This document shows, in pieces, positions 11,192-36,423 of a stretch of DNA of 36,540 nt. The DNA is taken from positions 1 through 36,540 of the forward strand of contig CAMDCW010000006.1 of NCBI GenBank assembly GCA_945890745.1. The letters are read 5' to 3'. The position numbers and the translations under genes are program-made. This stretch comes from Phycisphaera mikurensis NBRC 102666 (GTDB lineage: Bacteria > Planctomycetota > Phycisphaerae > Phycisphaerales > SM1A02). The number at the start of each line of letters is the position of its first letter. Positions within the stretch are counted from its first letter, which is position 1. Below the pieces are notes generated by a model. It was not told the origin of the DNA. It made no database searches and saw only the letters and a list, made by a program, of their open reading frames with translations.

Positions 11192-11234
11192 ACAGCGCAT
11201 CCAATCCACATCGCCGCTGCGGGACTGAGGAACG

Positions 11235-12248
11235 ATGACTGCCAATTCTGAAAATCCTGCTCACGCCGTGACCCTAGTCGTGCCAGCACGCGATGCAGCG
11301 GCGACATTGCAAGCGTGCTTGACGGCGGCGCTGGCGATCAAGTCATCGCCCGGGTCCGCGCTGACGGCGATCATTGTCGTTGACGACGGATCTGTTGATG
11401 AAACAAACACGATCGCGCGCCGGCTTGGAGTAGAGGTATTGGCTGGTACCGGCCGCGGTGCTGCTGCTGCACGAAACATTGGATGGCGAGCCGCCGCCAC
11501 TGAGCTTGTCTGGTTCATTGACGCGGACTGCATCCCGGATTTGAACGCACTCAACGCCCTGCTGCCGCACCTCCGCGATGCCAACGTCGCTGGAGCCGGC
11601 GGAACATACGACATTGAGCGAGACGCATCGCTCCTGCAGCGCCTCATTCACGAAGAGATCAAGGTCCGACATGCAAAAATGCCTGAGAATGTCGACTTTC
11701 TTGCTACCTTCGACGTTCTGTATCGGCGAGCAGTTCTCGCTTCCTTACACGGATTTGACGAGCGATATCTGAAAGGCCAAGACGCCGAATTTGCGTTTCG
11801 TGTGATTGAAGCGGGATACGCATTGCACTTTGACCAACGATCAATCGTGCAACATCATCATGCCGACCGGCTGAGTCGATACCTAGCCGTGCAACGACAG
11901 CAGGGATATTGGCGGGTGGCGCTCCATCTTGAACACCGCGGCCGCGGTCGCAGCAACTCTTACAGCAATGTCACTGATCATGCACAGCCATTCATCGCGA
12001 CGTTGATTCCGATTGCCGCGATCGCCACCCTGCAACTCCCGAAGTGGTGGCTCGTGATGATCCCGATCGTCGCGCTCTTGCTATTGCAACTGCCAATGGC
12101 GGTAGCGATGACCAAGCGCGCGGGACCAGCCATGTTGGCGTTCATCGTGCTTGGGGCTGTTCGTGCCGTCTATCGGGCGGTCGGCATGTGGCACGGGGTC
12201 ATTGATCGCGTCACTTCGTTTGTGATGGCGTCGGGTCGGAAACCCTAA
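11235..12248 (+). CDS. Glycosyltransferase family 2 with C-terminal TM region
   Basis: VTLVVPARDAAATLQACLTAAL, IIVVDDGSVDETN, AARNIGWRAA, FIDADC; hydrophobic C-terminus. Confidence 0.9.
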   Translation: MTANSENPAHAVTLVVPARDAAATLQACLTAALAIKSSPGSALTAIIVVDDGSVDETNTIARRLGVEVLAGTGRGAAAARNIGWRAAATELVWFIDADCIPDLNALNALLPHLRDANVAGAGGTYDIERDASLLQRLIHEEIKVRHAKMPENVDFLATFDVLYRRAVLASLHGFDERYLKGQDAEFAFRVIEAGYALHFDQRSIVQHHHADRLSRYLAVQRQQGYWRVALHLEHRGRGRSNSYSNVTDHAQPFIATLIPIAAIATLQLPKWWLVMIPIVALLLLQLPMAVAMTKRAGPAMLAFIVLGAVRAVYRAVGMWHGVIDRVTSFVMASGRKP

Positions 12249-15487: not shown

Positions 15488-15500
15488 CGCAACCCGGGCG

Positions 15501-15530
15501 ATGCTACACTTTTCTGGAAATAAGGGTCAA
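15501..15530 (-). promoter_or_regulatory. Candidate sigma70-type promoter for 14372..15487
   Basis: Minus strand TTGACC - 18 nt - TAGCAT immediately upstream of the ATG, within a 47-bp divergent intergenic region; short leader. Confidence 0.3.
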
Positions 15531-15534
15531 TCGC

Positions 15535-17410: not shown

Positions 17411-17422
17411 CGCGTTTGGCCG

Positions 17423-19059: not shown

Positions 19060-20785
19060 GGGGTATCACCTCCTCCTGAACGGATCCGCCCTCGATGCGC
19101 AACACACGGTCGCAGCGCGCCACCGTTGCGGCTCGGTGCGCGATGACCACAATCGTCTTGCTGCCGTGTAGAGCGTCAATTGCCTCCATCACAGTTGCCT
19201 CCGTCTCGCCATCGAGCGCGCTGGTGGCTTCATCAAGCACCAGTACCTCTGGATCGTGATAGAGCGCACGCGCAATTCCGATGCGCTGGCGCTGACCACC
19301 GGAGATTCGAACCCCGCGCTCACCGACGACTGTGGCAAGACCATTTGGCAAATCTGCCACAAATCCATCCAAATGAGCCAAGGAAATAGCCCTCGCTACT
19401 GCAGCGTCATCAATTCGATCCTCCGCGATCCCGAACGCTACATTTCGCCTCACACTATCGTCCAAGAGATATATCACTTGCGGCACATATCCAATACGCC
19501 GCTGCCACCAATCCATGCACGTAGCAATATCGGTCCCGCCAACGAGCACTCGCCCCGACCCGGGTGCAAGTAGCCCCAGCACCACATCAACAAGGGTGCT
19601 CTTGCCAGATCCGCTTGGACCAATGAGGCCGACGGCCTGTCCGCGCACGATTGAAAGAGATACGTCACGTAGCACTGTTGATGGCGGCGATGGATAGCTG
19701 AAGTGCAGTCGATCAACTTGAATGCAATCCCAATCTGCTGGCCCATGGCGTGTCGTTACGGTCTCAGGAGCGCTTGCGTTACTCAATGTCACGCTGAGTG
19801 ACCGCACCGAAACAAGTCCAAGACCTACGGCGTGCACTGCCGTCAGCATGCGACTGACCGATGGTACGAGTCGGAAGACAGCAACTGCGAAGAGCCCGGC
19901 AACCGGAACGATCGTGTCGGCTGGTCGCCCGCGCATGGTCATCACCACCACCAGTACCGCAAGCCCTGCGACTGCAAGTACCTCAATCCACAGCCGCGGC
20001 AGATCCCGAAGCGTCTGAACATGCCGGCCGATTCGCGCGCTTCGCTCCCCCGCGGCTGAAAACTGTCGGATGAACTCGCCCTCGCGATGCAGAAGCCGCG
20101 CCTCTTTGATCCCCCCAAAACCCTGCTGCAGGACACGAAAGCGCAGCCGATCAAGCCTTCGCCGTTCGGTAGTCAATCCGTCCGCCCGCGCGTCCGTCAC
20201 TCGATGGAAGCCGTATCCAACGACCCCAAGCACCCCGATCACTAGCAATCCACCCGTCGGCTCAATCAACAACAATAGCGCGCCGAGCGCCGCGACAACC
20301 AAAGCCTCAGATACAAATGCGAGTGATGGAACTACTACACCGAATGCAAACTGATCAACCTCCTGAGTAACGGCCTGCACGAGCGTTGCTGAGTTGTGTT
20401 GCAAGTGAAATGACCACGGCCGATGCAAATACGCAGCAAACAGTCGATTGCTTAGGGACCACTGCACTCCAAACGCATATCGATTCTGTTGCCAGGTCAG
20501 TGCTAGGCGGTATAGAGCCTTGACGAGATATGCAACAAGAAGCGCTAACACTCCAGCGAGCACTACGTATGACCGATCTTGTTCCGCTAGCCAAGCCTGG
20601 ACCCCGCTTGGAAGTAGTTCTAACGAACCACCCCCCGCCAGCAACGCAATGACCGGTATGGCAAGACCGACGCCGATTGTCTCCAGCGCTGCACCGACAA
20701 CCATCAACACCAACAACACCACTGCACCGCGCCTTTGGCGAGGTTCAAGCAGTTTCCATGAATCTCGAAGATCAGCGCCGTCCAT
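19052..20785 (-). CDS. ABC transporter, fused permease/ATPase (PglK/MsbA-type lipid-linked glycan exporter)
   Basis: N-terminal TM domain; Walker A GPSGSGKSTLVDVVLGLL, signature RISGGQRQRIGIARALYHDPEVLVLDEATSALD; ETIGVGLAIPVIALL start as in PglK-like exporters. Confidence 0.9.
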   Translation of the reverse strand: MDGADLRDSWKLLEPRQRRGAVVLLVLMVVGAALETIGVGLAIPVIALLAGGGSLELLPSGVQAWLAEQDRSYVVLAGVLALLVAYLVKALYRLALTWQQNRYAFGVQWSLSNRLFAAYLHRPWSFHLQHNSATLVQAVTQEVDQFAFGVVVPSLAFVSEALVVAALGALLLLIEPTGGLLVIGVLGVVGYGFHRVTDARADGLTTERRRLDRLRFRVLQQGFGGIKEARLLHREGEFIRQFSAAGERSARIGRHVQTLRDLPRLWIEVLAVAGLAVLVVVMTMRGRPADTIVPVAGLFAVAVFRLVPSVSRMLTAVHAVGLGLVSVRSLSVTLSNASAPETVTTRHGPADWDCIQVDRLHFSYPSPPSTVLRDVSLSIVRGQAVGLIGPSGSGKSTLVDVVLGLLAPGSGRVLVGGTDIATCMDWWQRRIGYVPQVIYLLDDSVRRNVAFGIAEDRIDDAAVARAISLAHLDGFVADLPNGLATVVGERGVRISGGQRQRIGIARALYHDPEVLVLDEATSALDGETEATVMEAIDALHGSKTIVVIAHRAATVARCDRVLRIEGGSVQEEVIPHG

Positions 20786-21648
20786 TACTGAAGCCTTCCT
20801 GAAGATTCGCGGATCAATCGCAGCGCATCGCGCAAACGAACATCGTGCTGCAGGCGACCCGAAGATACCTGCGCATCCACCTCACCATCGTCGGGATTCA
20901 GCCGCCGAAACTCCTCGGGGAGTCGACCGGCAAGCAGCGCCTGATAGAGAATCCGCCAAGTAGCGCCCACGGATGGCTTGAACTTTGTGTTACGAGCGTA
21001 TGCGGCCCCACCCAATTGAATCTTGTTGTGAAACTGAGCGTAAGAGCGGATGGGAAAGTGCAAAATTGTGAGGGGAACAGCTCCGCAATCAACAACCGCG
21101 CCATCGCAGCGTACCGCGTGATTCCCCTGGTCAACTTCTATGAGCGGATTGGCGCGATGTGCAACCTTTGGCGGCAATGGCTTTCCAACAGCCTGGATCG
21201 ACTGCGTATCACGCAACGTCAGACGTTCAAAGAACGGCGCTGATAGAGGTAATGATGTCGGGACCACCGGAAAATTCACCCGTGCAACACTTACTGCTGC
21301 CATCGCCGCTGCTGAACTTGCAAACACGTCCTTCAGGCTTGCGCCGGGGATATCGGGGAACCAGAATTCGTCTGCATCACTATTGATGACCCAGTCAGCA
21401 CCATGCTCGGTGGCGGCTAACCGAGCCATCCGAGTAACCCACGCGGTTTGCATGTAGTCATCTTGCGGCTCATGTAACACCCGTACCACGCCACGCCGTC
21501 GATACTCATCGAGGATCGCAGGCGTACTGTCGCGCGATAAGTTGTCTGTAACGATAATGAAATCGACACCACGGGACAGATGAAAATCCAAATTCTCCCG
21601 CAAGATGTCTTGCTCATCGCGCACTAACAGTGTCATGACAATTTTCAA
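20785..21648 (-). CDS. Glycosyltransferase family 2-like (DUF23/GT92-type, Glyco_tranf_2_4-like)
   Basis: (TTG start) KIVMTLLVRDEQDILRENLDFHLSRGVDFIIVTDNLSRDST, DWVINSDADEFWFP; ORF extends to 21699 so start is uncertain. Confidence 0.78.
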   Translation of the reverse strand: MKIVMTLLVRDEQDILRENLDFHLSRGVDFIIVTDNLSRDSTPAILDEYRRRGVVRVLHEPQDDYMQTAWVTRMARLAATEHGADWVINSDADEFWFPDIPGASLKDVFASSAAAMAAVSVARVNFPVVPTSLPLSAPFFERLTLRDTQSIQAVGKPLPPKVAHRANPLIEVDQGNHAVRCDGAVVDCGAVPLTILHFPIRSYAQFHNKIQLGGAAYARNTKFKPSVGATWRILYQALLAGRLPEEFRRLNPDDGEVDAQVSSGRLQHDVRLRDALRLIRESSGRLQ

Positions 21649-21715
21649 CGATGGCTCCAATTCCGCATATGTGCACAGTCTGCACATGCAATGGCGCAAT
21701 CATTCGATCGTGAAT

Positions 21716-22369
21716 TCATATGCATCCTGGCTGATATCCAAACGCTTCGAAGTCGCACTTATAGCGCTCTGCCACCAACGCAAGAGCGCGCGCGGTAAAC
21801 ATATCGGCTCGGCGCGACCGAACTCCGCGGTTTCGATGCGGCAACATGGCACGAGCGTTTATAGCGCCACAAATACGCGCAAAGTCTTGTTGCAGGTTCT
21901 CAAAACGACCGATTTCCTGGACCGCCAAACTTCCATCATCGCCCTGTAAGAATTCCAGTTGCGGTCGCAAGTGCGGATGATCAAGCCGAACTGCACGGAC
22001 CACGAATTCTTCAAACTGTAGTCCGCTCAATTCAACACCGCGTGCGCGCGCGTAATCCAACAAATCACCATCCAAATTGGCCCACTCAGAGGCGAGGCGG
22101 TGGAGTGGATGTCGCACAAATGCGAACGATCGGTAGCCGTGGCGCTGATCTTCAGGGACCGCCTGGATGAATTCGCGCCAAGTGAGATGTTGTAAAAAGT
22201 TTGATCGCCACTGCATGGCTAACCAGGCCGGCGAAGTAACTCGGCCGTACATGACGTCCGCATCCTCAGTCCGCCAATCACGCAACATCCCCAACGCATC
22301 CTCGAGGCTCGTGCCTCCACACTTTGGAACATGGATGAATATGCAGCGATACTGGTGTGAAATCGGCAC
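21716..22369 (-). CDS. Sulfotransferase family 2 (carbohydrate sulfotransferase-like)
   Basis: GTG start; CIFIHVPKCGGTSLEDALG (5'-phosphosulfate loop), FAFVRHPLHRLASEW (3'-phosphate R..S motif). Confidence 0.85.
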   Translation of the reverse strand: MPISHQYRCIFIHVPKCGGTSLEDALGMLRDWRTEDADVMYGRVTSPAWLAMQWRSNFLQHLTWREFIQAVPEDQRHGYRSFAFVRHPLHRLASEWANLDGDLLDYARARGVELSGLQFEEFVVRAVRLDHPHLRPQLEFLQGDDGSLAVQEIGRFENLQQDFARICGAINARAMLPHRNRGVRSRRADMFTARALALVAERYKCDFEAFGYQPGCI

Positions 22370-22370
22370 G

Positions 22371-23222
22371 TTATGCCACCTCCGCACTTGCGGCCTGCAG
22401 GCGTCGCGTGGTGGCAGCAACGCTCGCTCGTGCGCGTGTTCGCAGCATGAGATCGAGCGGCGGACGTGAATTCATGAGACTGGGATCAGTGCGGGTAGTT
22501 GTCGAGTGTTCTGGAAGCAGTACACCGCGTGACTCGCGCAGCCACCTCAGCAAACGCGGCATATGCTCTCCTGCGCGTGCACCATCAATGAACGCCACTC
22601 GACCAGGAAATCGCATCGCACACGCCAAGGCCCGATTGTTGTAGGTCTCCCAAAGCCGTATCGCCGCGTCATCTCGAGTCATCGGCAGCCCAAGTTTTCG
22701 AAGTGGCCACGCCCCACGAAAGTGATGCTGCAGCGGCAAGTCACGCCGGCGGCGCAAACTTGCCACGACGCCAGCCGCATCACGAAACGGAACGACAACC
22801 GTTAGCGATGGCAGCAATTCAAGCCAAAATTCAAGAAATAACGTAGTCCGCGGATCCTTCCACCCCCACGCCGAAGCCTCGGGCGTACCCATGGCGGAGT
22901 CAACAGATGACCTTCGCCGCGCCTCGTTCACGCGTTCACAAATCAATTCACGCGCTCGATCGCATAGGTCACCTGGCACCGACAAGGTGTGCGGCACATC
23001 AGTCAACGCCCAGTCCGTACCATTCGCTGCCAATATCGCGTCGTGCAAATCCACAACTCGGCGATCCTCAAAGTAGCCCCGCTGGTTGTGCAAATTTGCA
23101 GCGATGAAGTTACGCCCAAGATCGACTCCCGCATCACCCAACATGCTGGCAATCAGTGATGTCCCGCTCCGGTGCATTCCCGCAATTGCCACGCAGGCGC
23201 CGCATGAAATCTCTGAGCTCAT
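22371..23222 (-). CDS. Sulfotransferase family protein
   Basis: CVAIAGMHRSGTSLIASMLGDAGVDLG (PAPS-binding loop), WGWKDPRTTLFLEFWLELLPSLTVVVPFRDA. Confidence 0.83.
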   Translation of the reverse strand: MSSEISCGACVAIAGMHRSGTSLIASMLGDAGVDLGRNFIAANLHNQRGYFEDRRVVDLHDAILAANGTDWALTDVPHTLSVPGDLCDRARELICERVNEARRRSSVDSAMGTPEASAWGWKDPRTTLFLEFWLELLPSLTVVVPFRDAAGVVASLRRRRDLPLQHHFRGAWPLRKLGLPMTRDDAAIRLWETYNNRALACAMRFPGRVAFIDGARAGEHMPRLLRWLRESRGVLLPEHSTTTRTDPSLMNSRPPLDLMLRTRARASVAATTRRLQAASAEVA

Positions 23223-24190
23223 GCCGACTTCCTCGCCCGTGTACGCAGCAAGTACTTGATCCAAAGAAACGCCTTCCGCCGAGTGGACGCGTTGCGCCGC
23301 GGCATCGGTGGAACATTTCGCAGGAACGCCGCAGACAGCCCCAGGAGATGCAAAGCAGTGGAAAGTGCCTGTCCCGGGCGGCCAAGTGTCTGCCGCGCAA
23401 GGCGGCGGTGGCTCTCAATGAGGAGTGCTGGATTATGACCGTGAAATGCATGCGAATCACTCAAATGCGAAGTGCTCGCAGCACGAATGTGCGTCACCAC
23501 AGCGCCCGGCTCATAGCGACCAATCCAGCCCGCGCGATGCATGCGCCAACACCATTCGATCTCTTCGGCATAAAGAAAATATGCCTCGTTATAGCCACCA
23601 ATGTCGGCTACGACCTGGGCACGGGTCATGATTGCGGCGCCAGTAATCCAGTCAACACCGATGGCGGTGTCGTAACCGTATTGATGATGCAGCGAGAGGC
23701 AGTGCCTTGACTTTGGAAAGCGCCGGTCAAATCCGAGCATTGACCAGCTAAATAAACCAGAGAGCACTGTGTGGAATCGATATGCCGAAAGCTGATGGGT
23801 TCCGTCTGCATTCAACAGCTTTGGACCGACGTACCCAACTCGTGGATCGCGTTCAAGTATGTCCAGCAGAAACGAAATTGAACCAGGGTGACTCACTGTG
23901 TCTGGATTGAGGCAATAAACGAAGCGCCCGGTGGCATGGCGAAACGCACAGTTGTTGCCGCCCGCAAATCCAAGGTTGCGCTCAGTGCGGATCAGACGAA
24001 CCCACGGGAACTCTTCCGCAACCATGTCCGCCGAACCATCATGCGATTGATTGTCGACCACAAATGTTTCACTTGTGCGTCCCGCGCATGCTGCGTGAAT
24101 TGAACTCAAGCAGTCACGCAACAAGTCACGTGTGTTGAAGCTGACGATCACAATCGACACATCGGGACATGAATCAGCAGGTGCGGCCAC
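23219..24190 (-). CDS. Glycosyltransferase family 2, rhamnosyltransferase (WbbL)-like
   Basis: [111 protein letters not shown] open to 24283, GTG 24190 chosen. Confidence 0.88.
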
Positions 24191-24359
24191 GCCGGAAATA
24201 TACCAATTTCCTAGGCTAAATACCAAGATTGGCCATGTCTGTGCCATATCATCCAACCATGGACATGCACTCCCATTCCACAACCATGATTCGACTCACT
24301 CGGCTGACGGCGCCTCAGGATCCTTGTGGCGCGCTAGCAGCAGGTGCCGAGGGATCCCG

Positions 24360-25274
24360 ATGAACCGTCGCGGAATTGTTCTCGCTGGCGGCTCCGGAAC
24401 ACGGCTTCACCCTGCGACGATCGCCGTGTCAAAGCAGTTGCTACCAGTGTTTGACAAACCAATGATTTACTATCCGCTGACCACGCTCATGCTGGCCGGC
24501 ATTCGCGAGATATTGATCATCACCACGCCCGTGGACGCCCCGCTGTTCCGATTGCTACTTGGCGATGGCGCCCAGTGGGGAATCTCGATCTCCTATGCAG
24601 TTCAACCGAGTCCCGGTGGCATTGCCCAGGCATTCATTGTTGGCGCTGACTTTGTTCGCGATCAGCATTCGGCACTGATTTTGGGAGACAACATATTTTA
24701 CGGCCATGACCTTCCAGGAACGCTACGGACGGCATCAGGCGCACGAAACGGGGCCACGGTGATGGCGTACCGCGTGTCGGATCCCAACCGCTACGGTGTC
24801 GTGGAATTTGATGCGGCGGGTCGCGCCATTGGCATTGAGGAGAAACCGGTGAATGCAAAGTCACACCTTGCTGTCACCGGACTCTACTTCTATGACACGC
24901 GTGTTGTGGAGTTTGTGAAACAACTGCAACCTTCAACGCGCGGGGAGTTGGAAATCACAGATCTCAATCGAATCTACCTGGATTCAGGGGATTTAAACGT
25001 CACCGTGCTCGGGCGAGGATTCGCATGGCTGGATACGGGAACGCATGACACGCTCCTTGAGGCGGGACAATTCATCGCTACCCTGGAACGCCGCCAAGGA
25101 CTAAAGGTGGCCTGCCCTGAAGAGATTGCATTTCGACAAGGATGGATCACTGGAACTGACATTGAGCGTATTGCGGCGCGCATGGTCGGGAGCGGGAGTG
25201 CTGCTGCACGCAATGACTCCGCCGCTGGCTACGGGCGGTATTTGCGTGGCTTGCTCAAGGAGAGCGGCCAGTGA
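24360..25274 (+). CDS. rfbA: Glucose-1-phosphate thymidylyltransferase
   Basis: [86 protein letters not shown] at 24360. Confidence 0.96.
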
Positions 25275-25831
25275 AATGGGAGCCGCTATCGATCCCTGGT
25301 CTCATGCTCGCCACGCCGCGCATTCACGGCGACGAACGGGGATTGCTCTTTGAGAGCTTTAACGAGAGTGAATTTTGCAACGCCACTGGCGTCAACCCGC
25401 AATTTGTCCAAGAGAACCACTCGCGATCTGCATGCGGCGTCCTTCGAGGTATTCACTTACAGGCATTCCCGAGAGCGCAAGGCAAACTCGTGCGGGTAGT
25501 GCGCGGCGCGATATTTGACGTCGCGGTTGATGCCCGACGACATTCCCCCACATTTGGCAAGTGGTGTGGCGTGGAACTTTCCGAAACCAACCCCCAGGCG
25601 CTGTGGGTTCCCGCCGGATTCGGCCATGGCTTCCTATCGTTGCGCGACGACACCGAAGTCGTATATCGACTCACTGACTACTGGCAGCCCACGCTGGAGC
25701 GGTTCATCCGATGGAACGATCCCGACCTCGGCATTGAGTGGCCGCAACACCTGCAGCCGATACTTGCCCCACGCGATGCAAACGCCGGAACACTTTCGGA
25801 CATCCCAGACCATGAGCTCCCGCCGTTCTGA
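25271..25831 (+). CDS. rfbC: dTDP-4-dehydrorhamnose 3,5-epimerase
   Basis: GTG start overlapping rfbA stop; [68 protein letters not shown]. Confidence 0.95.
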
Positions 25832-25862: not shown

Positions 25863-28800
25863 TCACTGACAGGGACCCCAATCGCCCAACAGCCGACCAA
25901 GGTCCGCCCCATTGACGACGCCATCGCGATTGAGGTCACTGGCAGTATTCATGCCCCAGTCACCCAGCAGGACTCCAAGGTCCGCACCAGCCACAACGCC
26001 GTCCCGGGTGATATCCGAAGCACACGTCCCGCATCGATCAGGAATTCCATCTCCGTTGGCGTCCACCAACGTCCCGTCCGTGATGTCACAACCATCCGGC
26101 TTCTGATTCTGATTGCAATCATTCGGCAATGAACCCGAGAATCCATAGGCGCGAATGAGCCCATCGCCTTGCGTGAGAGTTCCATACAGGGTCGAAACGC
26201 TCAGATTGTTGGGGTCAACCGTAACTCCAATCGACACCCATGTTCGTTGATTGGGCTCACTGAGGTCGACGCCGATCGGCGCTTGATTACCAAAGATGTC
26301 CCGATAAATCACACCGACGAAGAACGACGTTCCGGCTGGCCCGATGTAGGTCGCCGGGATTTGCACCGTATCGAATTGATTGCTGTTTGCGTAGTCCGCA
26401 AGTGTTGGCACGGAAGTGATGACTTGTGCATCATCCGGTAGGCCGTCTCCATTGGGATCGCTCCACAGTGCCACTCGGTATTGAACCCCTGAAAATGCAC
26501 TTCCGAGCATGACCCGAATCGCGCCGATCGTCTCGCCGCCAGTCGACGTGGTGCACGCGTTGAGCCAGATCAAGTCAGCTGCGCCGCTCACGCCATAGTT
26601 TCCATCGCGGGTACCGTCGTCGTACGCATACTCAACATCAAGCGGGGCATTGCCAAGCTGGCACTCGTCGGGAATGCGGTCCGCTTGACAATCAGCACTA
26701 AATCCAGTCGCCACATCACTGCTATCAAGCACGCCGTTTCGATTGCAGTCTTCGCATTCGTCCGGAATCCCGGTGCCGTCGAGGTCAGTGCTACTGCCGG
26801 ACGCAACGTCACAGCTGTCGATCACGTTGTTCCGGTTACAGTCGCCGCCAACCAACTGACATCCATCAGGAATGCCATCGGCGTTGCAGTCGAATTCACC
26901 GCCAAGCAATTGACACTCGTCGGGGGTGCCGTCCTGCTGGCAGTCCGGGCTCGTAGCGTTGGCAACATCGACGCTGTCAAGTACGCCGTTGCTATTGCAG
27001 TCTTCGCATTGGTCAGGAATACTGTTGGCATTGATGTCGGCACTCGTGCCATCAACAATGTCGCATACGTCCAAGATGGAGTTTCGATTGCAATCACCGG
27101 TCGTCGACAGTGCCACGCCACGAACAATCCACTTTCCTGGGAAGAGTGAATCCTCAATGGTCAAGATCTCCAACGCGTTACCTGCAAGATTGTTTGGATC
27201 AATCTCGCCTGAGGCCCCAACGAACCAAGCCCTGCGCAGCGCCGGAACACCACTCGCATCAAGGGGCGCCGGGTAGTAGCTCGCCTGATCGAGTGACACA
27301 ATCGCACCGACAAAGAACGACGTCCCATTCGGGCCAATCGCCGTGTCTTCACACTCAATGCGGCGAATGACTCCCTGTGGACCAGCGAGCGTATTAATCA
27401 CGCGCAACGCCTGAGCGTCCCTCGGATCACCATCATTGTTTGGATCGGACCAAATGCAAATCGTGACCGGCTGGAGTTCGGTCATGAAGACAAACTCGAT
27501 ATCAATGGCAGTAATCGTGGAAGCGTTATCCGCTACGCGGAATTGGTTCATCCACGCCATATGGGTTCCAAGCGAACGAATGCCGAATTCTGCACCACCG
27601 TCATCACGGCGGTACAGATAGTCGAGATTCATTTGGCAGTAATCAAGTTCTGCATCACCATTGCAGTCCGCGTCCGGGTTCGCGGTGATTTCGCACGCAT
27701 CAACAACGTTGTTCTTGTTGCAATCCTGCGTCGGCCATTGACACTCGTCCGGAACACCATTTGCGTCACAGTCGTTGCCCGACAATTGGCACTCGTCAGG
27801 GACACCGTCGTGGTTGCAATCTTGCGCCTGTCCGCCGCCGATTTCGCAATCATCAGATTCGCCGTTCTGGTTGCAGTCGGCTTCGCATACGTTGGGAAGA
27901 CCATCGAGGTCGCAATCTTGGGTGGTACCGCTGGCGATGTCACATCCATCGGGGACTCCGTTGCCATTGCAGTCAGCGCTCCCACTCCGTGCAAGCAGAA
28001 TCGGCGCATCAATGAGGCCAGAGGAAATCCGGAACTCGTCAATTGAGCCCCTCAGTCGTTGATTGATGAGCCCAGCGGAGTCAGTATGCGCGCCGACAAG
28101 TAGCGGCGCGGCAACCGCTACATGTCCATGATCAACAAATGGGACGAACTCAATCAATTGGTCGAGCACGAATCGTACTTCTTGATTCTTTGCATCCGCT
28201 GATACCGATACGTAGTGCCACTCAGTGTCATTGATGTTCAGATTGGAGGTCACCGTCCAGAAACTTCCTGAAGTGGCTCCGTTGTTGCCAAACAGAAGCA
28301 CCAATTCCCGACCGTTGAACTGTGACGACTTGCCGTAGTTGAACAGTGCAGCGCTCGGCATGTTGCCGCCTTGGGCAAAGACAATAAAGTCGGCCGCCTT
28401 GTCGCCAGTGGTAAGCACCTTGCGTTGCACCAACACCTGACGACTGGCCGCATCGGCACCGGTAGCCAACGTATCGAGGCGAATCCAGGCTTCGATGGTG
28501 AAGCTATCGCCTCCTATAACGAGAACGCTGGCGGGGTCATTCACGAGGAATGTTCCGTTGGCAGCAAGATCTACTGACTTGCGGTTGACTTGCGCAGTCG
28601 CCGGGATCATGGCGAGCGGTACTTCCTGAGATCGAATGATTCCGGTCGGCACACCATTGAGGGCGTTGGGGCTGGAATCCAGCACGTTTCCAGAGTCCTC
28701 TTCAAACCGCCAATAGCCGAGGGTGGCACTTTGTCCGATTTCACACTGGTCGAGAATGCAGTTTTCGTTGCAGTCGAGCGCGGTTCGCCCAAGAATCTCC

Positions 28801-29525
28801 TGTGCATCGGTCAGACCGTTTCCATCGCAGTCGCTACACGCGTCCGGCCAACCGTTGTTGTCGGCGTCGGTCATTGGCCGCAGCGCACTGCTCGGCACTA
28901 CCACACGCTGTTGACCTGTTGGCTTCCACTCCAGAGTCGCCTCCGCCCCGCCACCCGCCTCTTGATAGTCCATTCGCAATACATAACTCTGACCTTGCTG
29001 CAGCGTGATCGTGCCACTCCAAGTTGTGGGACTTTGCGAAATCCACTTGTCCACCAACAGTTGCCCATCGATCCATAGACGGGTGCCATCGTCGGTCGTG
29101 GTGTAGAAGGTGCAGGGCCCGGTGGTTGGCGCGGTGATCGTTCCAGTCCACCGTACAGAAAATGCGTCGACGGGTACCAACGGATCGGGACTTCCATCGT
29201 TCCAATTGAAGTTAATGTTCGAATCAATGCGCGTCAGCACCCGTGTGCGAAAGTCCCCGGTGTTCCCGTCATTACTGAAGTACTGCCCGACAAGTCCAGA
29301 GGCGGCGGCGCGCTCGATTGACTCCGGCATCCCGTTGCCATCGCAGTCGGTGCAGTCTTGACACTCGTCGGGAATTCCATCAATGTTCGAGTCAGCCGAG
29401 ACCCCCTGCGAAATGTCGATCGAATCGTCGACATAATTACGATTACAGTCAATCGGCGGTGCGACTCCGAGGATGCACGAGAGGTAGATCGATGTGACAA
29501 GCATGGCAGTGCACGAGTCCTTCAA
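25863..29525 (-). CDS. Large secreted multidomain protein: PA14, LamG/concanavalin-like, DCNxNGxxDxC Ca-loop repeats, two related beta-domains, C-terminal dockerin-like tail
   Basis: 1220 aa ORF; signal peptide; PA14 ~28875-29294 (VGQYFSNDGNTGDF...TTTDDGTRLWIDGQLLVDKW); LamG ~28020-28724 (YWRFEEDSGNVLDSSPNALNG...SFTIEAWIRL...GSIDEFRI); terminal ITRDGVVAGADLGVLLGDWG...LNRDGVVNGADLGRLLGDWGPC. Confidence 0.9.
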   Translation of the reverse strand: MKDSCTAMLVTSIYLSCILGVAPPIDCNRNYVDDSIDISQGVSADSNIDGIPDECQDCTDCDGNGMPESIERAAASGLVGQYFSNDGNTGDFRTRVLTRIDSNINFNWNDGSPDPLVPVDAFSVRWTGTITAPTTGPCTFYTTTDDGTRLWIDGQLLVDKWISQSPTTWSGTITLQQGQSYVLRMDYQEAGGGAEATLEWKPTGQQRVVVPSSALRPMTDADNNGWPDACSDCDGNGLTDAQEILGRTALDCNENCILDQCEIGQSATLGYWRFEEDSGNVLDSSPNALNGVPTGIIRSQEVPLAMIPATAQVNRKSVDLAANGTFLVNDPASVLVIGGDSFTIEAWIRLDTLATGADAASRQVLVQRKVLTTGDKAADFIVFAQGGNMPSAALFNYGKSSQFNGRELVLLFGNNGATSGSFWTVTSNLNINDTEWHYVSVSADAKNQEVRFVLDQLIEFVPFVDHGHVAVAAPLLVGAHTDSAGLINQRLRGSIDEFRISSGLIDAPILLARSGSADCNGNGVPDGCDIASGTTQDCDLDGLPNVCEADCNQNGESDDCEIGGGQAQDCNHDGVPDECQLSGNDCDANGVPDECQWPTQDCNKNNVVDACEITANPDADCNGDAELDYCQMNLDYLYRRDDGGAEFGIRSLGTHMAWMNQFRVADNASTITAIDIEFVFMTELQPVTICIWSDPNNDGDPRDAQALRVINTLAGPQGVIRRIECEDTAIGPNGTSFFVGAIVSLDQASYYPAPLDASGVPALRRAWFVGASGEIDPNNLAGNALEILTIEDSLFPGKWIVRGVALSTTGDCNRNSILDVCDIVDGTSADINANSIPDQCEDCNSNGVLDSVDVANATSPDCQQDGTPDECQLLGGEFDCNADGIPDGCQLVGGDCNRNNVIDSCDVASGSSTDLDGTGIPDECEDCNRNGVLDSSDVATGFSADCQADRIPDECQLGNAPLDVEYAYDDGTRDGNYGVSGAADLIWLNACTTSTGGETIGAIRVMLGSAFSGVQYRVALWSDPNGDGLPDDAQVITSVPTLADYANSNQFDTVQIPATYIGPAGTSFFVGVIYRDIFGNQAPIGVDLSEPNQRTWVSIGVTVDPNNLSVSTLYGTLTQGDGLIRAYGFSGSLPNDCNQNQKPDGCDITDGTLVDANGDGIPDRCGTCASDITRDGVVAGADLGVLLGDWGMNTASDLNRDGVVNGADLGRLLGDWGPCQ
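26655..27095 (-). repeat. Tandem DCNxNGxxDxC repeat block 2 (aa ~811-957)
   Basis: DCNRNSILDVCDI / DINANSIPDQCE / DCNSNGVLDSVDV / DCQQDGTPDECQ / DCNADGIPDGCQ / DCNRNNVIDSCDV / DLDGTGIPDECE / DCNRNGVLDSSDV / DCQADRIPDECQ. Confidence 0.9.
27633..27974 (-). repeat. Tandem DCNxNGxxDxC repeat block 1 (protein-level repeats, aa ~518-631)
   Basis: DCNGNGVPDGCDI / DCDLDGLPNVCE / DCNQNGESDDCEI / DCNHDGVPDECQ / DCDANGVPDECQ / DCNKNNVVDACEI / DCNGDAELDYCQ. Confidence 0.9.
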
Positions 29526-29744: not shown

Positions 29745-30971
29745 CTACGCCCCCGGCTGCGGTACTTCGAGGGCCAACGATGACGGAATTGGCGGGAAGT
29801 TCACCTCGGCGCGGAACACCACGAATTCGGACGGATCCCACGCCAACCCCCGCATGCGATCCTCGAGGAACGCGGCGAGCCGAGGCACTCCATCAACCCG
29901 AACGCTGGCGATCCCCTTCGGCAAACGCGCTAGTTCCACACCGCAATGCAGCCGGTCTCCCAAACTGTATTGCATCGATCGTTCCGGCGCGGCGTTGAGG
30001 TCGCTGTACACGGTCGCGTCTGGCTGCACTCCGTCGGCAAGCAAACTGCGATGCACGGCAAACACCATGACTTGCGCCTCGGACGGCGTTCGAAGCCGGA
30101 ATACCTGAAAGATCCCCGAGTGCCCAGCGGAATTACCAATCGGCTGAATGCGACGCATGCAGCAGCCATGAACCACCGTGGCAACACTCGCACGACCGAC
30201 TTCGCCTTCGCCGAGCTCAAGCCCCTGCATCTTTCCAAGCATCGACGGGCGCAATTGTGGGAGCGCCGCAGAGCACAGTGATGGAATCAAAAACGGAGGC
30301 TGAGAACTCGGGCACGGTTCAAGTGGAGTGAGCGTCCGGCGTGTGTTGAGCTTGCCAACATCGTCGATCACTGCCGCCGATTCCAGACGCCACGAAGCAT
30401 CAAATCGAAGCCGCTCCAGGTCCACGAATCCGCGCACGGTGATGCAATCAACATGCTTTCCGCGTGCATCAGGAGCAATCACATCCACGCGAAATGCGGT
30501 GCTCGCTCGCATGCCCCAAACATGCATCCCGCCTTCATAGAGTTTCCGGCGGTGCTCCGAAATAAATCGCCCGTCTTGCGCGGTGGACAGGTTGGCGCTC
30601 AAGAGTTCAAACGCGCGCTTATTGCCGGCCCACTTCAGGCCAACTTCCTGCGCGAAACTCATCGCAGCGATCATTTGAGTGACCGTATCTCGCGGCACGC
30701 CACATTTGGTAGCCGCCTTCGCGGTGATCTTGATCCCCAACGGACCTGGCAGGTGCCGAACGCACGCAAACGGATCGCCAGACTGCGCAATGTGCGTTAG
30801 TTTCCATGCCAATTTCAAATCAACGCCAAGAGCCTTCTCGAGGTCAACCGGTCGAAACCCTTGCATGCCCGGTACCGCGGCCAGAAGATCGCGCATCGAC
30901 GCCTTCAGCGCTTGCAGCGCTTCGCGGACATCGCCAACGGCGGTGGTACTGGATCTTTCCGGGGATCTCAC
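29745..30971 (-). CDS. Conserved-looking protein of unknown function (~408 aa)
   Basis: Long ORF (open to TTG 31007; GTG 30971 lies 11 nt past the upstream gene's stop); helical N-terminal region then mixed alpha/beta; no family recognised. Confidence 0.7.
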   Translation of the reverse strand: MRSPERSSTTAVGDVREALQALKASMRDLLAAVPGMQGFRPVDLEKALGVDLKLAWKLTHIAQSGDPFACVRHLPGPLGIKITAKAATKCGVPRDTVTQMIAAMSFAQEVGLKWAGNKRAFELLSANLSTAQDGRFISEHRRKLYEGGMHVWGMRASTAFRVDVIAPDARGKHVDCITVRGFVDLERLRFDASWRLESAAVIDDVGKLNTRRTLTPLEPCPSSQPPFLIPSLCSAALPQLRPSMLGKMQGLELGEGEVGRASVATVVHGCCMRRIQPIGNSAGHSGIFQVFRLRTPSEAQVMVFAVHRSLLADGVQPDATVYSDLNAAPERSMQYSLGDRLHCGVELARLPKGIASVRVDGVPRLAAFLEDRMRGLAWDPSEFVVFRAEVNFPPIPSSLALEVPQPGA

Positions 30972-30981
30972 GCGACGCAGT

Positions 30982-33492
30982 TTACCTCGCCGATCCCGCA
31001 GTGCCAAGGATATTCAGTGCTTCCGCTGACTTCTGATGCTCCGGATCAAACTGCAGGGCGCGATGAAATTCCGCTTCTGCCTCCGGCTGCCGACCAGCGC
31101 GTATGAGCGCACTTCCAAGGTTAAAGCTGCCAGATGCAGCCATGCCGTCGTCCCGCGCGCGAGTCGCCAAGGCGACCGCTTCGCGGAATGTCGCCATCGC
31201 CTCCGCAAGCCGACCCTGAGCCTGCAGCGCATTGCCGAGCATCAATGCGAACCGCGCGTCCACTGGGTTGAGCGATCGCGCCATGGAATATGCGCGCTCT
31301 GCAGCACCAGGGCGACCGAGGGTCATCTCCGCATTCCCAAGTTGATACCAGCCACCAGCGATGTCCGGATACTGCTCCACCAACTGCAACAACTGGTGGT
31401 GCGCGTCTTCCGCACGGCCCCGAATGATGTCGCGCCCCAAATCCGCAATCTGCGATTGAATCCGCATTGCTGGGTTCGGCTCATCTCGTAACTTCACAAT
31501 GGTGTGACCATGTTCCGCGGTTGTGTCGAGTGCCCAATACTCAACCCATGCCGGCACACGACCAGGTAGCACAGCATGCGTCACCCCATAGTGGTGAAAG
31601 AGCAAGGCTCGCCGCGCTTCATCGGTTCGATCGTCAAGCATCTCTGCCGTTTGACGTACCCGCGTTGCTCCGCGAGGCACGCCAGTACTGCTGCGCTCCG
31701 AACAAACCAACGAAGATCCCCGCAGCATTGCCACCCACGTGCCAGTCAATCGACCGCACGCCACTACTGCGCCATCTGGAATTGCCATCCTCATCCACTT
31801 CTGTTGCTCAATCAAGCCGATGTATCGATCCGACGTCGGTGCGGAATCATCTGAGGTCGCTCGCTCCCACCACCGTTGTAATGAATACGGAGCAGTAAAC
31901 GACGCATGCGCCCATCCAAGCAAGAGTGCCAGCGCCGCCATGGCTGATGAAACCGCCAGCGCCGCGCCAGTTCGCCATGGTCGCATCGCCTCGCCAACCG
32001 CTGCAAGCGCTGGAACTGAGAGCGGAATCCAGAACACGAAGGCGAGCGCTTCAAATCGGGCAATCATCCACTGCGCCCCAAGAAATCGAATCGCTTCCGT
32101 ACACAGCGGCGGCGTCAGCATCACCACCTGAATGATTCCAATCGCAGCAGCAAGTAGCAATGCCTCACGGCGCCGCGCCAATCTCACCGCAAGGAATGTG
32201 CCGACAGCCATCAACAGGAGTCTCCAGCCCGGTACGCCCAATATGCCCCCAGAGAAACCCCGCCCGAACGTACGACTCACCCACTGGCTGTCCCGCGCTT
32301 GCCACATGGTGAATCCATCCTGAGCGTGGAGAGCGGAATCGCGAGCATTCCCCTCAGCGTCCGCGTTGCCTTGTACGGTGTTGGAACCAGCGCCGCCCGC
32401 ACGGGGTCCAGGTTGCGGCTTCGCTGCAAGTTCGCGCGCGCGTCGCGCCGCCTCGCGCGCAGACGGCGGCGCAACATTTCCGGTCGCACCTCCAGGGAAG
32501 GCCATCATGCGCGAGGTCAGTGGGAACATGCCGCCCGCTATGACCACCGTCACAGTCACCACTAACGCGGTGGATGCCCCGGCCTTACCACGAACCAGCC
32601 GCCAAACACCAACAGCACCCGCAATGGGCGCCACGATCACTAGCAGAAATCCTGCGTAGAGCGGGTGAATCATCCCCACCACAGCAGTGGTTCCTGCAAC
32701 ACGAAATACCGTAGCCCAAGCACTGCACACATCGCCGCGCCACGGCGCACTCAGCAGACGAATGACAACAGCCAATGCGATTGGCAAGGCAAACCACGGA
32801 GCAAGTTGATTGGGATAGAGCGTGTAGTCGTACGGTGCGCGATTGACCACCACCATCAGCGCCGCAATCCACGGCGCCCATGATCCGCCGAGCACTACCC
32901 ATGCGAGGTATGCCGCTGAACTAGCAATCATCAGCCGCGACGCCCCCAGCGATCCAAACCACATTTCTAACGGATCCATCGCCATTAACTTGCAGGCGAT
33001 TGCTTGCAGCGCATGAATGACATTGGTGTGATAGATGGGATACGGAAACTCCAACGGCACCTGAATGAACGGATCACAATTGGAGAGGCCATGTTCAAGT
33101 AGAAATCGAATACGAGTAATGTGCACGCGCGCATCGTTGTTGAGAATGGCACCAACGCGTTCAGCAAGCACCACGTCAAGCAGCAGCAACGCTCCGGCGA
33201 TGCCAATGATGGAAAGTAAACCTGCCTGCGCACCACGCCACGCTCGCGCGCGAACGAGATCCACTACTCCCCAAGCGATGAATGCCGCTACCAACGCGGC
33301 CAACGCCGTTACTGGCATTCGCAGGAGGTAACCAAGAATCACCGCTGGAGCTAGCACTACCAAAGCGGTCATCCACCAAACCGCCATGGAAGGAAGCACC
33401 CCACCCCGCAACTCCTGAGGCAACAATCGACGCGCAACGGCCGCTCCCGGAAAGAGCAATGCCAACCAGAACAATAACGGTCCGACACTCAC
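30982..33492 (-). CDS. Multi-pass membrane protein with C-terminal TPRs (putative GT-C-type)
   Basis: Many hydrophobic segments; NNDARVHITRIRFLLEHGLSNCDPFIQVPLEFPYPIYH loop; C-terminal TPRs (GGWYQLGNAEMTLGRPGAAERAYSMARSLNP...SFNLGSALIRAGRQPEAEAEFHRALQFDPEHQ). Confidence 0.8.
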   Translation of the reverse strand: MSVGPLLFWLALLFPGAAVARRLLPQELRGGVLPSMAVWWMTALVVLAPAVILGYLLRMPVTALAALVAAFIAWGVVDLVRARAWRGAQAGLLSIIGIAGALLLLDVVLAERVGAILNNDARVHITRIRFLLEHGLSNCDPFIQVPLEFPYPIYHTNVIHALQAIACKLMAMDPLEMWFGSLGASRLMIASSAAYLAWVVLGGSWAPWIAALMVVVNRAPYDYTLYPNQLAPWFALPIALAVVIRLLSAPWRGDVCSAWATVFRVAGTTAVVGMIHPLYAGFLLVIVAPIAGAVGVWRLVRGKAGASTALVVTVTVVIAGGMFPLTSRMMAFPGGATGNVAPPSAREAARRARELAAKPQPGPRAGGAGSNTVQGNADAEGNARDSALHAQDGFTMWQARDSQWVSRTFGRGFSGGILGVPGWRLLLMAVGTFLAVRLARRREALLLAAAIGIIQVVMLTPPLCTEAIRFLGAQWMIARFEALAFVFWIPLSVPALAAVGEAMRPWRTGAALAVSSAMAALALLLGWAHASFTAPYSLQRWWERATSDDSAPTSDRYIGLIEQQKWMRMAIPDGAVVACGRLTGTWVAMLRGSSLVCSERSSTGVPRGATRVRQTAEMLDDRTDEARRALLFHHYGVTHAVLPGRVPAWVEYWALDTTAEHGHTIVKLRDEPNPAMRIQSQIADLGRDIIRGRAEDAHHQLLQLVEQYPDIAGGWYQLGNAEMTLGRPGAAERAYSMARSLNPVDARFALMLGNALQAQGRLAEAMATFREAVALATRARDDGMAASGSFNLGSALIRAGRQPEAEAEFHRALQFDPEHQKSAEALNILGTAGSAR

Positions 33493-35258
33493 TGCGATGC
33501 CTCCGACGTGAACTTGTCGAACGTGCGCTTCGCCGCTGGCGGGTGATCAGCACACTCCGCTCGGCACATTTCCTCAAGCGCATGCCACTGCGCCGCGCTT
33601 GGGGCGAACACCGCCGCTCGGCGAAATGCATCAACCGCCTCGCAAGGCCTTTCAAGCGCGCGCAGCGCCTCGCCCCTTGCGCCGTGAAGTGTCGCACTAC
33701 GATTCAATGACGGCGTCACTTGATCGAACAATTCAAGTGCTTCCGCAGCGTGTCCGCGCCGCAACTCAAGTATGCCCCAGTAGAGCCCAAGCAGTGGGTC
33801 CTGCGGACGCAACCCAGCGGCAATGTCAAGATCCGCCTGCGCATCATCATTACGACCGCGTTGCATCAACAGTCCCGCGCGATTGATCCGCGCGCGTACA
33901 TGCTCAGGACGGCGAGCAATCACTTGGTTCCAAAGCAGGAGTGGATCCGCATAGTCCTGATTTCGCAAACTCGTACCGATAGTTTCCATCGTGACCACAA
34001 CGACGAGAAGTACGGCCATGACCACGGACATCCAATGCCCGATCCGCGAACTGCGATGTTGAGCAAAACTCCAAAAAGCCGCAGCGATTGAGACAATTCC
34101 CGCCATTACTATCACCAGCGGTAGGTACATCCGATGGTCGGCGGCAACGTCCGCGAGCGGCACGAAACTCGAAGATGGTGCCAACAGCAGCACAAAGCAA
34201 ACCGGCAGTACTCCCCACCATTGCTTGCGCGCCAAAGCAACTACCACCAGCACCGTCAGCAGCGCCAGCGTTGCCACCCCCACTGCGAGAGACCACGGAG
34301 CAACCAGTTCTTCTGCACCATGATCAATGGACATCAACGATGGACAGACCACTTCGCCCATGTACAGCCCAACGGCTCGCACTTGCGTCGCTGCGTACTG
34401 AAGTGGCGAGGTGCCTGCGACACGAAGCCCGGCACCAGCGTTTCCTGCCCCGTTCGCAAAGACGCCGCGCACCACGCCAAGCGGGAGCAGCACCAACGTT
34501 GTCGCCCACAGCGCACCATGCAAGAGCCATCGAAGCCGAAGCGTGGCAACCAGCGAACCAGTCAGGATGAATGCATCAACCGCAAGAAGCAGCGCGGGCC
34601 CACAGGCGGCGGTTGGCTTGGCAGCGATGGCGAGTAGGCAACACCCCACCGTGGCGGCATGCCACACTCCGAAACTACCACGCGTGCGAGCGATACCTGC
34701 TGCCCTGGGCAACTCTTGCGCCGCACAACAGAGGCACGCCACCGCAGTAAGAATGAACAACCCGGCCATCGCCTCAGCACGCTGAATGACGTAGGTTGCG
34801 GCAGCAGTTTGCAGTGGGTGCATCGCCCACAGCACCGCCACGGCAACAGCAGAAAATAGAGCCGCATGTTCCGAAATGGACACCAAGTGTCGCACGCGGA
34901 GTCGATCCACGCAGCACAACGCCGCGAGAAATGCAGCAACCGCCGCGGTGGCATGAACAAGAATGTTGAAGGCGTGATATCCCCAAGGATTGAGTCCCCC
35001 CAGCAGGTGATTCAAGCCAAGCGACAATTGCACCAGCGGACGCTGGCCGGAGACCATCGTCTGCCACGAGTTCCATGGAGCAACAATCAGACGCTCTTCT
35101 CCCAATATCCGCACGATGTCGTCGAAGACAAAGTCCGCCCCGAGCGCTCCGCGCCACGCAACCAATACCATCAACCAAATGCCGGCCGCTAGCAAAAGCA
35201 CTGCTATAGAGCGCGAACGCACCCACGATGCTGGTACCGAATGGTGCAGCGAATTCAT
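33489..35258 (-). CDS. TMTC-like membrane protein: N-terminal GT-C-like region plus C-terminal TPRs
   Basis: ALGADFVFDDIVRILGEERL ... GQRPLVQLSLGLNHLLGGLNPWGYHAFNILVHATAAVAAFLAAL ... YVIQRAEAMAGLF; TPRs from ARRPEHVRARINRAGLLMQRGRNDDAQADLDIAAGLRP; ATG 35258; overlaps next gene start (ATGA). Confidence 0.8.
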   Translation of the reverse strand: MNSLHHSVPASWVRSRSIAVLLLAAGIWLMVLVAWRGALGADFVFDDIVRILGEERLIVAPWNSWQTMVSGQRPLVQLSLGLNHLLGGLNPWGYHAFNILVHATAAVAAFLAALCCVDRLRVRHLVSISEHAALFSAVAVAVLWAMHPLQTAAATYVIQRAEAMAGLFILTAVACLCCAAQELPRAAGIARTRGSFGVWHAATVGCCLLAIAAKPTAACGPALLLAVDAFILTGSLVATLRLRWLLHGALWATTLVLLPLGVVRGVFANGAGNAGAGLRVAGTSPLQYAATQVRAVGLYMGEVVCPSLMSIDHGAEELVAPWSLAVGVATLALLTVLVVVALARKQWWGVLPVCFVLLLAPSSSFVPLADVAADHRMYLPLVIVMAGIVSIAAAFWSFAQHRSSRIGHWMSVVMAVLLVVVVTMETIGTSLRNQDYADPLLLWNQVIARRPEHVRARINRAGLLMQRGRNDDAQADLDIAAGLRPQDPLLGLYWGILELRRGHAAEALELFDQVTPSLNRSATLHGARGEALRALERPCEAVDAFRRAAVFAPSAAQWHALEEMCRAECADHPPAAKRTFDKFTSEASQ

Positions 35259-35362
35259 GTCTGCGCTGGGCGGACATGATCCTTCCGCCTGATCGGAATG
35301 CGGGATATTTCCTAGCATCGAGTGGTGGGCATGGTACCTTCGAATCACCCGTGACTGCCCAG

Positions 35363-36067
35363 ATGCACCATGAACCAGTGATTGATCAACAGGCAAATGC
35401 GGGCACATGGGTGGTGGTTGCCGTCTACAACGAAGTCAACACAGTCGCTGGCGTGCTGACTGAACTCCGGCAGGTCTTTCCAAATGTTGTTGCCGTTGAC
35501 GACGGATCGCAAGACGGTTCATGGGAGCACCTCCGTGCGATTGCGCCCTACGCACTTCGCCATGTCGTGAACCGTGGGCAAGGTGCGGCGCTACAAACAG
35601 GTACAGAATTTGCCTTAAAAATGGGGGCAATTCGCGTTGCCCACTTTGATGCCGATGGACAGCATCGAGTCGAAGACCTCGTTCGTATGGTCGCTGCGGT
35701 AGCGCGCGGCGAGTGCGATGTTGCACTCGGCGACCGCTTTCGCGGTCAGTCGAACCTGCCCGCCTCACGGGCCGCGCTCATTCGCGGAGCCGCGTTCATG
35801 CATCGGTTTACGAGCGGCATTATGCTTTCGGATGTCCACAATGGCTTACGCGTGCTGACCCGCCATGCGGCCTTGAAGTGCGAGATCACTGCTGATCGCA
35901 TGGCTCATGCCAGTCAATTCATTGACCTCGTCGCCAGCAGCGGCCTGCGCGTGCGTCAATATCCAACGTCCATTCGTTACACCGAGTATTCCATGGCGAA
36001 GGGCCAACGCGCGACGGAAAGTTTCCGCATTCTGTTCCACTATGTAATTGCAAGGATCTTCGGATGA
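35363..36067 (+). CDS. Glycosyltransferase family 2, dolichyl/polyprenyl-phosphate hexose synthase (DPM1)-like
   Basis: TWVVVAVYNEVNTVAGVLTELRQVFPNVVAVDDGSQDGSWEHL, NRGQGAALQTGTEFAL, AHFDADGQHRVEDL, LGDRFRGQSNLP; no TM at C-terminus. Confidence 0.88.
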   Translation: MHHEPVIDQQANAGTWVVVAVYNEVNTVAGVLTELRQVFPNVVAVDDGSQDGSWEHLRAIAPYALRHVVNRGQGAALQTGTEFALKMGAIRVAHFDADGQHRVEDLVRMVAAVARGECDVALGDRFRGQSNLPASRAALIRGAAFMHRFTSGIMLSDVHNGLRVLTRHAALKCEITADRMAHASQFIDLVASSGLRVRQYPTSIRYTEYSMAKGQRATESFRILFHYVIARIFG

Positions 36068-36423
36068 CATCGTTCCAAATCGTCTTACTCAGCTTCGCAC
36101 TCGTGGGTGCCGTCACCAGCATCGCCCTCGTGGCCAAGAACATCATTGGGCGCGCTACCGGTGCCGTGCTTCTGGTGCTCATAGCACTGGGCGCGATGTT
36201 CACCGTGGTTCCAAATTGGACTACCGCGCTCGCGCATGCACTCGGCATTGGCCGTGGTGCAGACTTGCTTCTTTACCTGCTAGTGATTGGCAGTTCGACG
36301 GGATTTCTGGTGTTGTATGTAAAGCTCCGGGCGGTTCGAAGAGAAGTCACCTTGTTGGTTCGCAAGATCGCCCTTGACGGGAGTGCCGGGGCGAGCAGCG
36401 ATGCCACGCACCGGAAATCGTGA
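36064..36423 (+). CDS. DUF2304-type small membrane protein
   Basis: ~119 aa with 3 hydrophobic segments then ...LVLYVKLRAVRREVTLLVRKIALD; translationally coupled (ATGA) to the DPM1-like GT2, the typical DUF2304 context. Confidence 0.75.
   Translation: MTSFQIVLLSFALVGAVTSIALVAKNIIGRATGAVLLVLIALGAMFTVVPNWTTALAHALGIGRGADLLLYLLVIGSSTGFLVLYVKLRAVRREVTLLVRKIALDGSAGASSDATHRKS

Follow-up and report, generated by a model that had tools for sequence, protein, structure and literature searches.

Organization of the locus

The window, by which we mean the whole stretch of 36,540 nucleotides of planctomycete DNA that was analysed, carries two divergent gene pairs, one for the membrane proteins A and B and the other for a glycosyltransferase (GT2) and a DUF2304 protein; a fifth gene of the set, GT2b, lies apart from them. 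The features discussed below are the following.

30982..33492, minus strand: protein B, 836 aa; putative second GT-C enzyme with a C-terminal alpha/beta segment and TPRs, DUF6541-related
33133..33135, minus strand: D120 of B, invariant acid in the DAxxHxxRxR motif; predicted catalytic residue
33489..35258, minus strand: protein A, 589 aa; putative TMTC-like GT-C membrane protein with 11 TM helices (residues 10-437) and a TPR domain (about 439-588)
35118..35123, minus strand: DD motif of A, D46-D47, in the first extracytoplasmic loop, after TM1; predicted catalytic base or metal site
35363..36067, plus strand: GT2, 234 aa; PpgS-like, putative polyprenyl-phosphate-sugar synthase; start approximate
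36064..36423, plus strand: DUF2304 gene, small membrane protein; proposed Rv3632-like partner of GT2
11235..12248, plus strand: GT2b, fifth gene of the module; 476 bits to the profile of the GT2b genes found between A and B
29745..31007, minus strand: X420, conserved neighbour that shares bases with the 3' end of B; no match in Pfam or NCBIfam

The gene calls agreed with the original prediction on the positions of its four genes (A, B, GT2 and DUF2304) and on the 104 bases that separate the start of A from that of the divergent GT2; the frame of A has a possible earlier start at 35408. The translational coupling of A to B had been ascribed to an ATGA overlap. This has to be corrected to GTGA, because the start codon of B is GTG, and ATGA is the overlap of GT2 with the DUF2304 gene. 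A search of the locus against plasmids gave no match.

The dTDP-rhamnose genes rmlB (9237), rmlD (10271), rmlA (24132) and rmlC (25271) are found at 9237-25831 of the window together with several GT2 and GT4 genes, a methyltransferase and an ABC transporter (19052-20785), and this region is an O-antigen or capsule-like cluster. The 1220-aa protein encoded next, at 25863-29525, looks secreted: it combines PA14 and laminin-G-like domains with repeats of a DCNxNxxPDxC motif, and its C-terminus is dockerin-like. In several loci a homologue of this protein is encoded near the module, of which it is a possible substrate. X420 looks soluble and is unlikely to belong to the enzyme set; at eight of the scanned loci one of its homologues lies no more than about 10 kb from the module.

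Protein A and its relation to the TMTC proteins

The motifs that had been noticed in A (FVFDD, QRPLVQLS and NPWGYHAFNILVH) were found in its sequence, and the C-terminal TPRs expected in both A and B were detected by Pfam, which recognised the TPRs alone in these two proteins. The AF2 model of A, based on an alignment of 20 homologues, has a mean pLDDT of 85.2 and a pTM of 0.87, and its helices together with the hydropathy profile place 11 hydrophobic helices ahead of the TPRs. This corresponds to the TMTC topology, in which 11 TM helices with a DUF1736-type loop between TM7 and TM8 are followed by TPRs.

TMTC1-4 are eukaryotic O-mannosyltransferases of cadherins that belong to the DUF1736 family, and their loops carry DD (EL1), RxD (EL2), KE(T/Q)xxT (EL3), DW (EL4) and ERxxY (EL5) (PMC7801869). 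At the corresponding positions of A, loop 1 holds DD (46-47), loop 2 RxE (160-162), loop 3 K214, loop 4 D312 and loop 5 R376. Across the membrane domains of the 20 homologues D46, R73, P74, H147, P148, Y156, Q159, R160, E162, K214, D312 and R376 are invariant, and D47 and H375 are conserved in at least 90%. A shares with TMTC1-4 the DD of loop 1, the RP, the HPxxT...R.E of loop 2, the K of loop 3, the D of loop 4 and the R-x-Y-L-P of loop 5. The DD motif and the EL5 arginine are retained as such, whereas RxE, KPT, DHG and DHRMY are partial forms: KPT stands for KE(T/Q), DHG for DW, and (D/E)HRMYLP for ERxxY.

DUF1736, the Pfam signature of TMTC proteins, matched neither A nor any other protein of the window genome at E<=10, and it was not listed for the membrane domains of the 20 homologues. 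Proteins above the DUF1736 cut-off were found in 22 of the 392 sampled planctomycete genomes; none of these DUF1736-positive TMTC proteins came from the sampled members of the window's own family. Homology to them was seen at the profile level: the membrane-only profile of A reached up to 131 bits against the DUF1736-positive planctomycete proteins, and hhalign aligned the two with a probability of 100% (E 1.5e-42, 351 columns), motif on motif. The match is not due to hydrophobic composition, since B, used as a negative control against the same proteins, gave 8%. Additionally, Pfam PMT_2 was matched by two of the 20 relatives of A (best 2.5e-6).

When the whole model of A was compared with the PDB by Foldseek, the top 50 matches were TPR matches, the TPRs swamping the membrane domain, and an HMM search of PDB sequences with the membrane part of A found no match to a solved GT-C sequence. 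Since the whole-model search lists TPR matches alone, the assignment of a GT-C fold to A is based on profile homology and topology, and on these A is best read as a putative member of the GT-C-type enzymes. The assignment of A to the TMTC type holds for the homology over the whole membrane domain and for the topology, but it fails on the DUF1736 match and on the KE and DW pairs; by its sequence A is TMTC-like rather than an established TMTC member. It differs from TMTC1-4 also in its bacterial origin and in the coupling to a donor synthase of its own, a PpgS-like enzyme and not a mannose synthase.

In a comparison of the A model with BFVD, two Nitrosopumilus spindle-shaped virus proteins (A0A514K300 and A0A514K2W1) aligned over a long stretch; these matches are not significant (TM-score 0.55-0.57 on target, E 0.16 and 0.47), and TPR matches swamp the list.

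Protein B as a second GT-C protein

The AF2 model of B is of high confidence (pLDDT 90.4, pTM 0.86). Two GT-C proteins stand out in its Foldseek list, the other top matches being mostly of TPR type: the arabinosyltransferase AftA (8if8, E 1e-4 to 3e-4, TM-score on target 0.54-0.57) and the C-mannosyltransferase CeDPY19 (7zlh, 7zlg and 7zli, E 7e-5 to 4e-4, TM-score on target 0.43-0.44). The likeness lies in the fold; the sequence identity to AftA and DPY19 is 10-12%, and an HMM search of PDB sequences with the membrane part of B found no sequence-level match to them. The prediction that B is a GT-C protein is borne out by the model, on which B is best read as a separate GT-C enzyme. A recent duplication can be discarded as the origin of the pair, as hhalign of A against B shows no relation.

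The motifs DAxxHxxRxR and P-x-YHT of B were invariant in the first alignment, and D120, H124, R127 and Y154-H155-T156, the core residues, are invariant in 29 homologues; judged from the sequence, the two motifs would suit a catalytic first loop. DUF6541 (PF20176) was matched at E<=1 by seven of the 29 homologues (best 8.3e-16), although not by B of the window itself, and no paper on DUF6541 was found in the literature search. Shorter homologues of B, of about 600 aa, were seen outside the module at seven loci, in one of them as two genes in tandem.

The replacement of the loop-3 glutamate and of the DW tryptophan in A might suggest that A and B have lost catalysis and serve as TPR membrane scaffolds or regulators with a shared, degenerate GT-C fold, and we know of no activity for close relatives of either protein. 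The invariance of the loop-1 acid, loop-2 RxE, loop-3 Lys, loop-4 Asp and loop-5 Arg of A in 20 homologues, that of the DAxxHxxR core residues of B and the strong coupling to a lipid-sugar synthase speak against such a role, which we regard as very improbable.

The donor pair

GT2 has a PF00535 domain with DDGS and DADGQH in its sequence. It had been described as DPM1-like, and here the assignment has to be changed: its closest family is not the mannose-type DPM1 but PpgS, the polyprenyl-P-GalNAc synthase (NCBIfam NF058614, 199 bits, E 6.9e-59), which is far ahead of the next family. The curated cut-off of this equivalog is 370 bits, above the score of the window GT2 and above the 213 and 240 bits reached in relatives. 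The DUF2304 membrane protein was predicted correctly, its match to PF10066 (61 bits) exceeding the gathering cut-off of 25.5; no publication using the term DUF2304 was among the literature matches listed.

PpgS of M. tuberculosis, assisted by the small membrane protein Rv3632, produces polyprenyl-P-GalNAc, which the GT-C enzyme Rv3779 then uses (PMC9671496, PMC3485146). By analogy, the PpgS-Rv3632 pair is the closest functional precedent for GT2 and DUF2304, and it points to an N-acetylhexosamine rather than mannose as the probable sugar of GT2. The likeness to the mycobacterial and corynebacterial PpgS-Rv3632-Rv3779 system extends to the arrangement, because a PpgS-like GT2 is adjacent to a small membrane partner and a GT-C enzyme is encoded in the same conserved locus. 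C. glutamicum carries a DUF2304 protein above the cut-off and is among the control genomes with a match to DUF6541, the domain found in the family of B; Rv3632 and Rv3779 themselves are candidate members of DUF2304 and DUF6541, respectively. The module differs from the mycobacterial and corynebacterial system in that its GT2 scores below the PpgS cut-off, it has a further GT2 and a TMTC-like enzyme, and the phylum is different.

GT2b and the conservation of the gene set

The original prediction comprised four genes, and these four are supported as members of the module, but a fifth conserved gene was overlooked. In relatives GT2b is situated between A and B; it is absent from this site in the window, where the best homologue was found at 11235-12248, and thus the earlier reading missed a component. 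This copy adjoins rmlB and rmlD, more than 20 kb from the rest of the module, and was recognised with a profile built only from the GT2b genes between A and B of five other genomes. GT2b resembles the mycofactocin glycosyltransferase MftF (TIGR03965), its best family match, with 133 bits in the window and 133-143 bits overall, below the family cut-off of 280.

Scanning of genome contigs with B as the query yielded 37 loci, nearly all of them in records labelled as planctomycete and the others in records labelled as untyped bacteria or as doubtful MAGs. The full order, DUF2304-GT2 divergent from A-GT2b-B, is present in 19 of the 37 (several are near duplicates); in five more the right-hand part of the module is seen and a contig end cuts the rest, and ten have B without the module. 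Other genera and families show this divergent arrangement as well. The original observation goes beyond chance, given the invariant membrane-domain residues of A in its 20 homologues and a gene order kept across many genera. In two further loci a TMTC-like gene was seen 6-10 kb from a GT2 and DUF2304 pair with B absent, which is a looser form of the same association.

Among 81 related genomes strong A was detected in 15, DUF2304 in 14 and strong B in 8, the latter two always within the A set, 'strong' meaning a threshold of about 90-100 bits that was set after the scores were seen. Fisher tests gave p about 1e-14 for A-DUF2304 and 1e-7 for A-B, values which ignore relatedness, the genomes not being phylogenetically independent. 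The tree distances of A correlated with those of B (0.94), GT2 (0.86), DUF2304 (0.80) and GT2b (0.79), and 0 of 999 permutations did as well; near duplicates and one weak, probably unrelated GT2 were left out of this comparison. In the tree of A, those module copies that are nearest to the window form one cluster (support 0.998 for 15), and five deeper copies intermix with TMTC-like proteins from outside the module. B is rare at the level of the phylum: with three candidates scored per genome it was detected in 4 of 392 genomes, all of which have DUF2304.

Of 14 genomes of the genus two have the set, the window genome and a relative whose protein is 97% identical, so that the module behaves as accessory within the genus. 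Such a distribution is also that of a variable surface-polysaccharide island, where unrelated glycan genes may become neighbours by chance. The recurrence of the divergent order refutes this explanation in its plain form, and the joint presence of B and DUF2304 in a distant family of the phylum and the correlated gene trees likewise oppose it, hence we consider it scarcely credible. The conserved neighbourhood, the co-occurrence and the tree correlation uphold the view that the two GT-C proteins belong to a single module with a donor synthase and its partner, DUF2304.

Proposed mechanism and the acceptor

The reading of these genes as a module is built on homology, the predicted fold of B, the topology of A, motif conservation and genomic coupling, and in its general form we hold it with high confidence. 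The evidence supports the charging of polyprenyl phosphate in the cytoplasm and the use of the lipid-linked sugar outside the membrane by two putative GT-C enzymes. From this framework we infer the sugar, its flipping, the role of GT2b, the acceptor and the order of steps. GT2, anchored to the membrane by DUF2304, would charge polyprenyl phosphate with a nucleotide-activated sugar, most likely N-acetylhexosamine, and the lipid-sugar would then be flipped, possibly by DUF2304 itself. Outside the membrane A would move the sugar to the acceptor, with DD as the catalytic or metal site, K214, D312 and R376 holding the lipid phosphate and the TPR domain presenting the acceptor. GT2b and B may serve for extension of the glycan or for attachment of a second sugar, and the acceptor would most likely be a secreted or envelope protein. 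That the five genes form a module for glycosylation outside the cytoplasm, its two GT-C enzymes working in this manner and most likely on such a protein, is in our judgement more probable than not.

The module also recalls GtrA/GtrB/Gtr and the GT136 pentofuranose systems, in which a lipid-linked monosaccharide donor is made in the cytoplasm and used outside by a GT-C enzyme (PMC11127046), and from which it differs by two GT-C and two GT2 enzymes, by the TPR domains and by having no recognised flippase. It is a variant of this known lipid-linked three-component kind of system, extended by three enzymes: one TMTC-like, a further GT-C and a further GT2.

A protein acceptor is plausible, the chances being nearly even. 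It is favoured by the TMTC relationship, by the TPR domains and by a GalNAc-rich O-glycoprotein known in a planctomycete, the S-layer glycoprotein of Kuenenia, which serves as a precedent only (PMC5088730). In its most specific form the proposal is a dedicated planctomycete protein O-glycosylation, probably of O-linked HexNAc, which the TMTC-like enzyme would start from its own polyprenyl-P-HexNAc and the second GT-C would extend; this form is tentative, and we would not yet call it probable.

The main rival keeps the same enzymology and changes the acceptor to a surface polysaccharide or lipid glycan, A and B adding side-chain sugars to an O-antigen- or capsule-like glycan in the manner of Rv3779 or Gtr. 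It is favoured by the PpgS/Rv3779 precedent, the nearest known combination of a GT2, an Rv3632-type partner and a GT-C enzyme, whose galactosamine system decorates arabinogalactan; by the likeness of B to AftA, a polysaccharide arabinosyltransferase; and by the clustering of rhamnose, glycosyltransferase and ABC transporter genes in the window. Furthermore, three-component systems modify polysaccharides (PMC11127046). On the other side, TPR domains occur in the protein-modifying TMTC, the group to which A is closest, and DPY19, likewise matched by B, is an enzyme with protein substrates. We know of no TPR domains in the polysaccharide-decorating GT-C enzymes such as Rv3779 and Gtr. The rml genes, moreover, adjoin the module only in the window and in its near-identical relative, the relatives having been examined with window queries. 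On balance we consider a polysaccharide or lipid glycan acceptor rather unlikely and keep a protein as the preferred one. Taken as a whole, the original interpretation is partly supported: the protein acceptor, the O-linkage and the nearby secreted targets that it proposed are possibilities.

Significance

Prokaryotic TMTC homologues exist (PMC7801869). A limited literature search found no assigned function for bacterial TMTC-type TPR membrane proteins, and no description of the five-gene set as a whole was found in the literature. The present analysis links a TMTC-type bacterial subgroup, through a conserved five-gene set, to a second putative GT-C enzyme and to a dedicated lipid-sugar synthase with its membrane partner, which provides a testable donor and a small target for reconstitution. 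The module offers a way of finding out whether TMTC-type enzymes are restricted to mannose, and it is a possible route to planctomycete glycoproteins. If the protein O-glycosylation reading is true, bacterial TMTC-like proteins would represent a broad, unrecognised group of protein glycosyltransferases.
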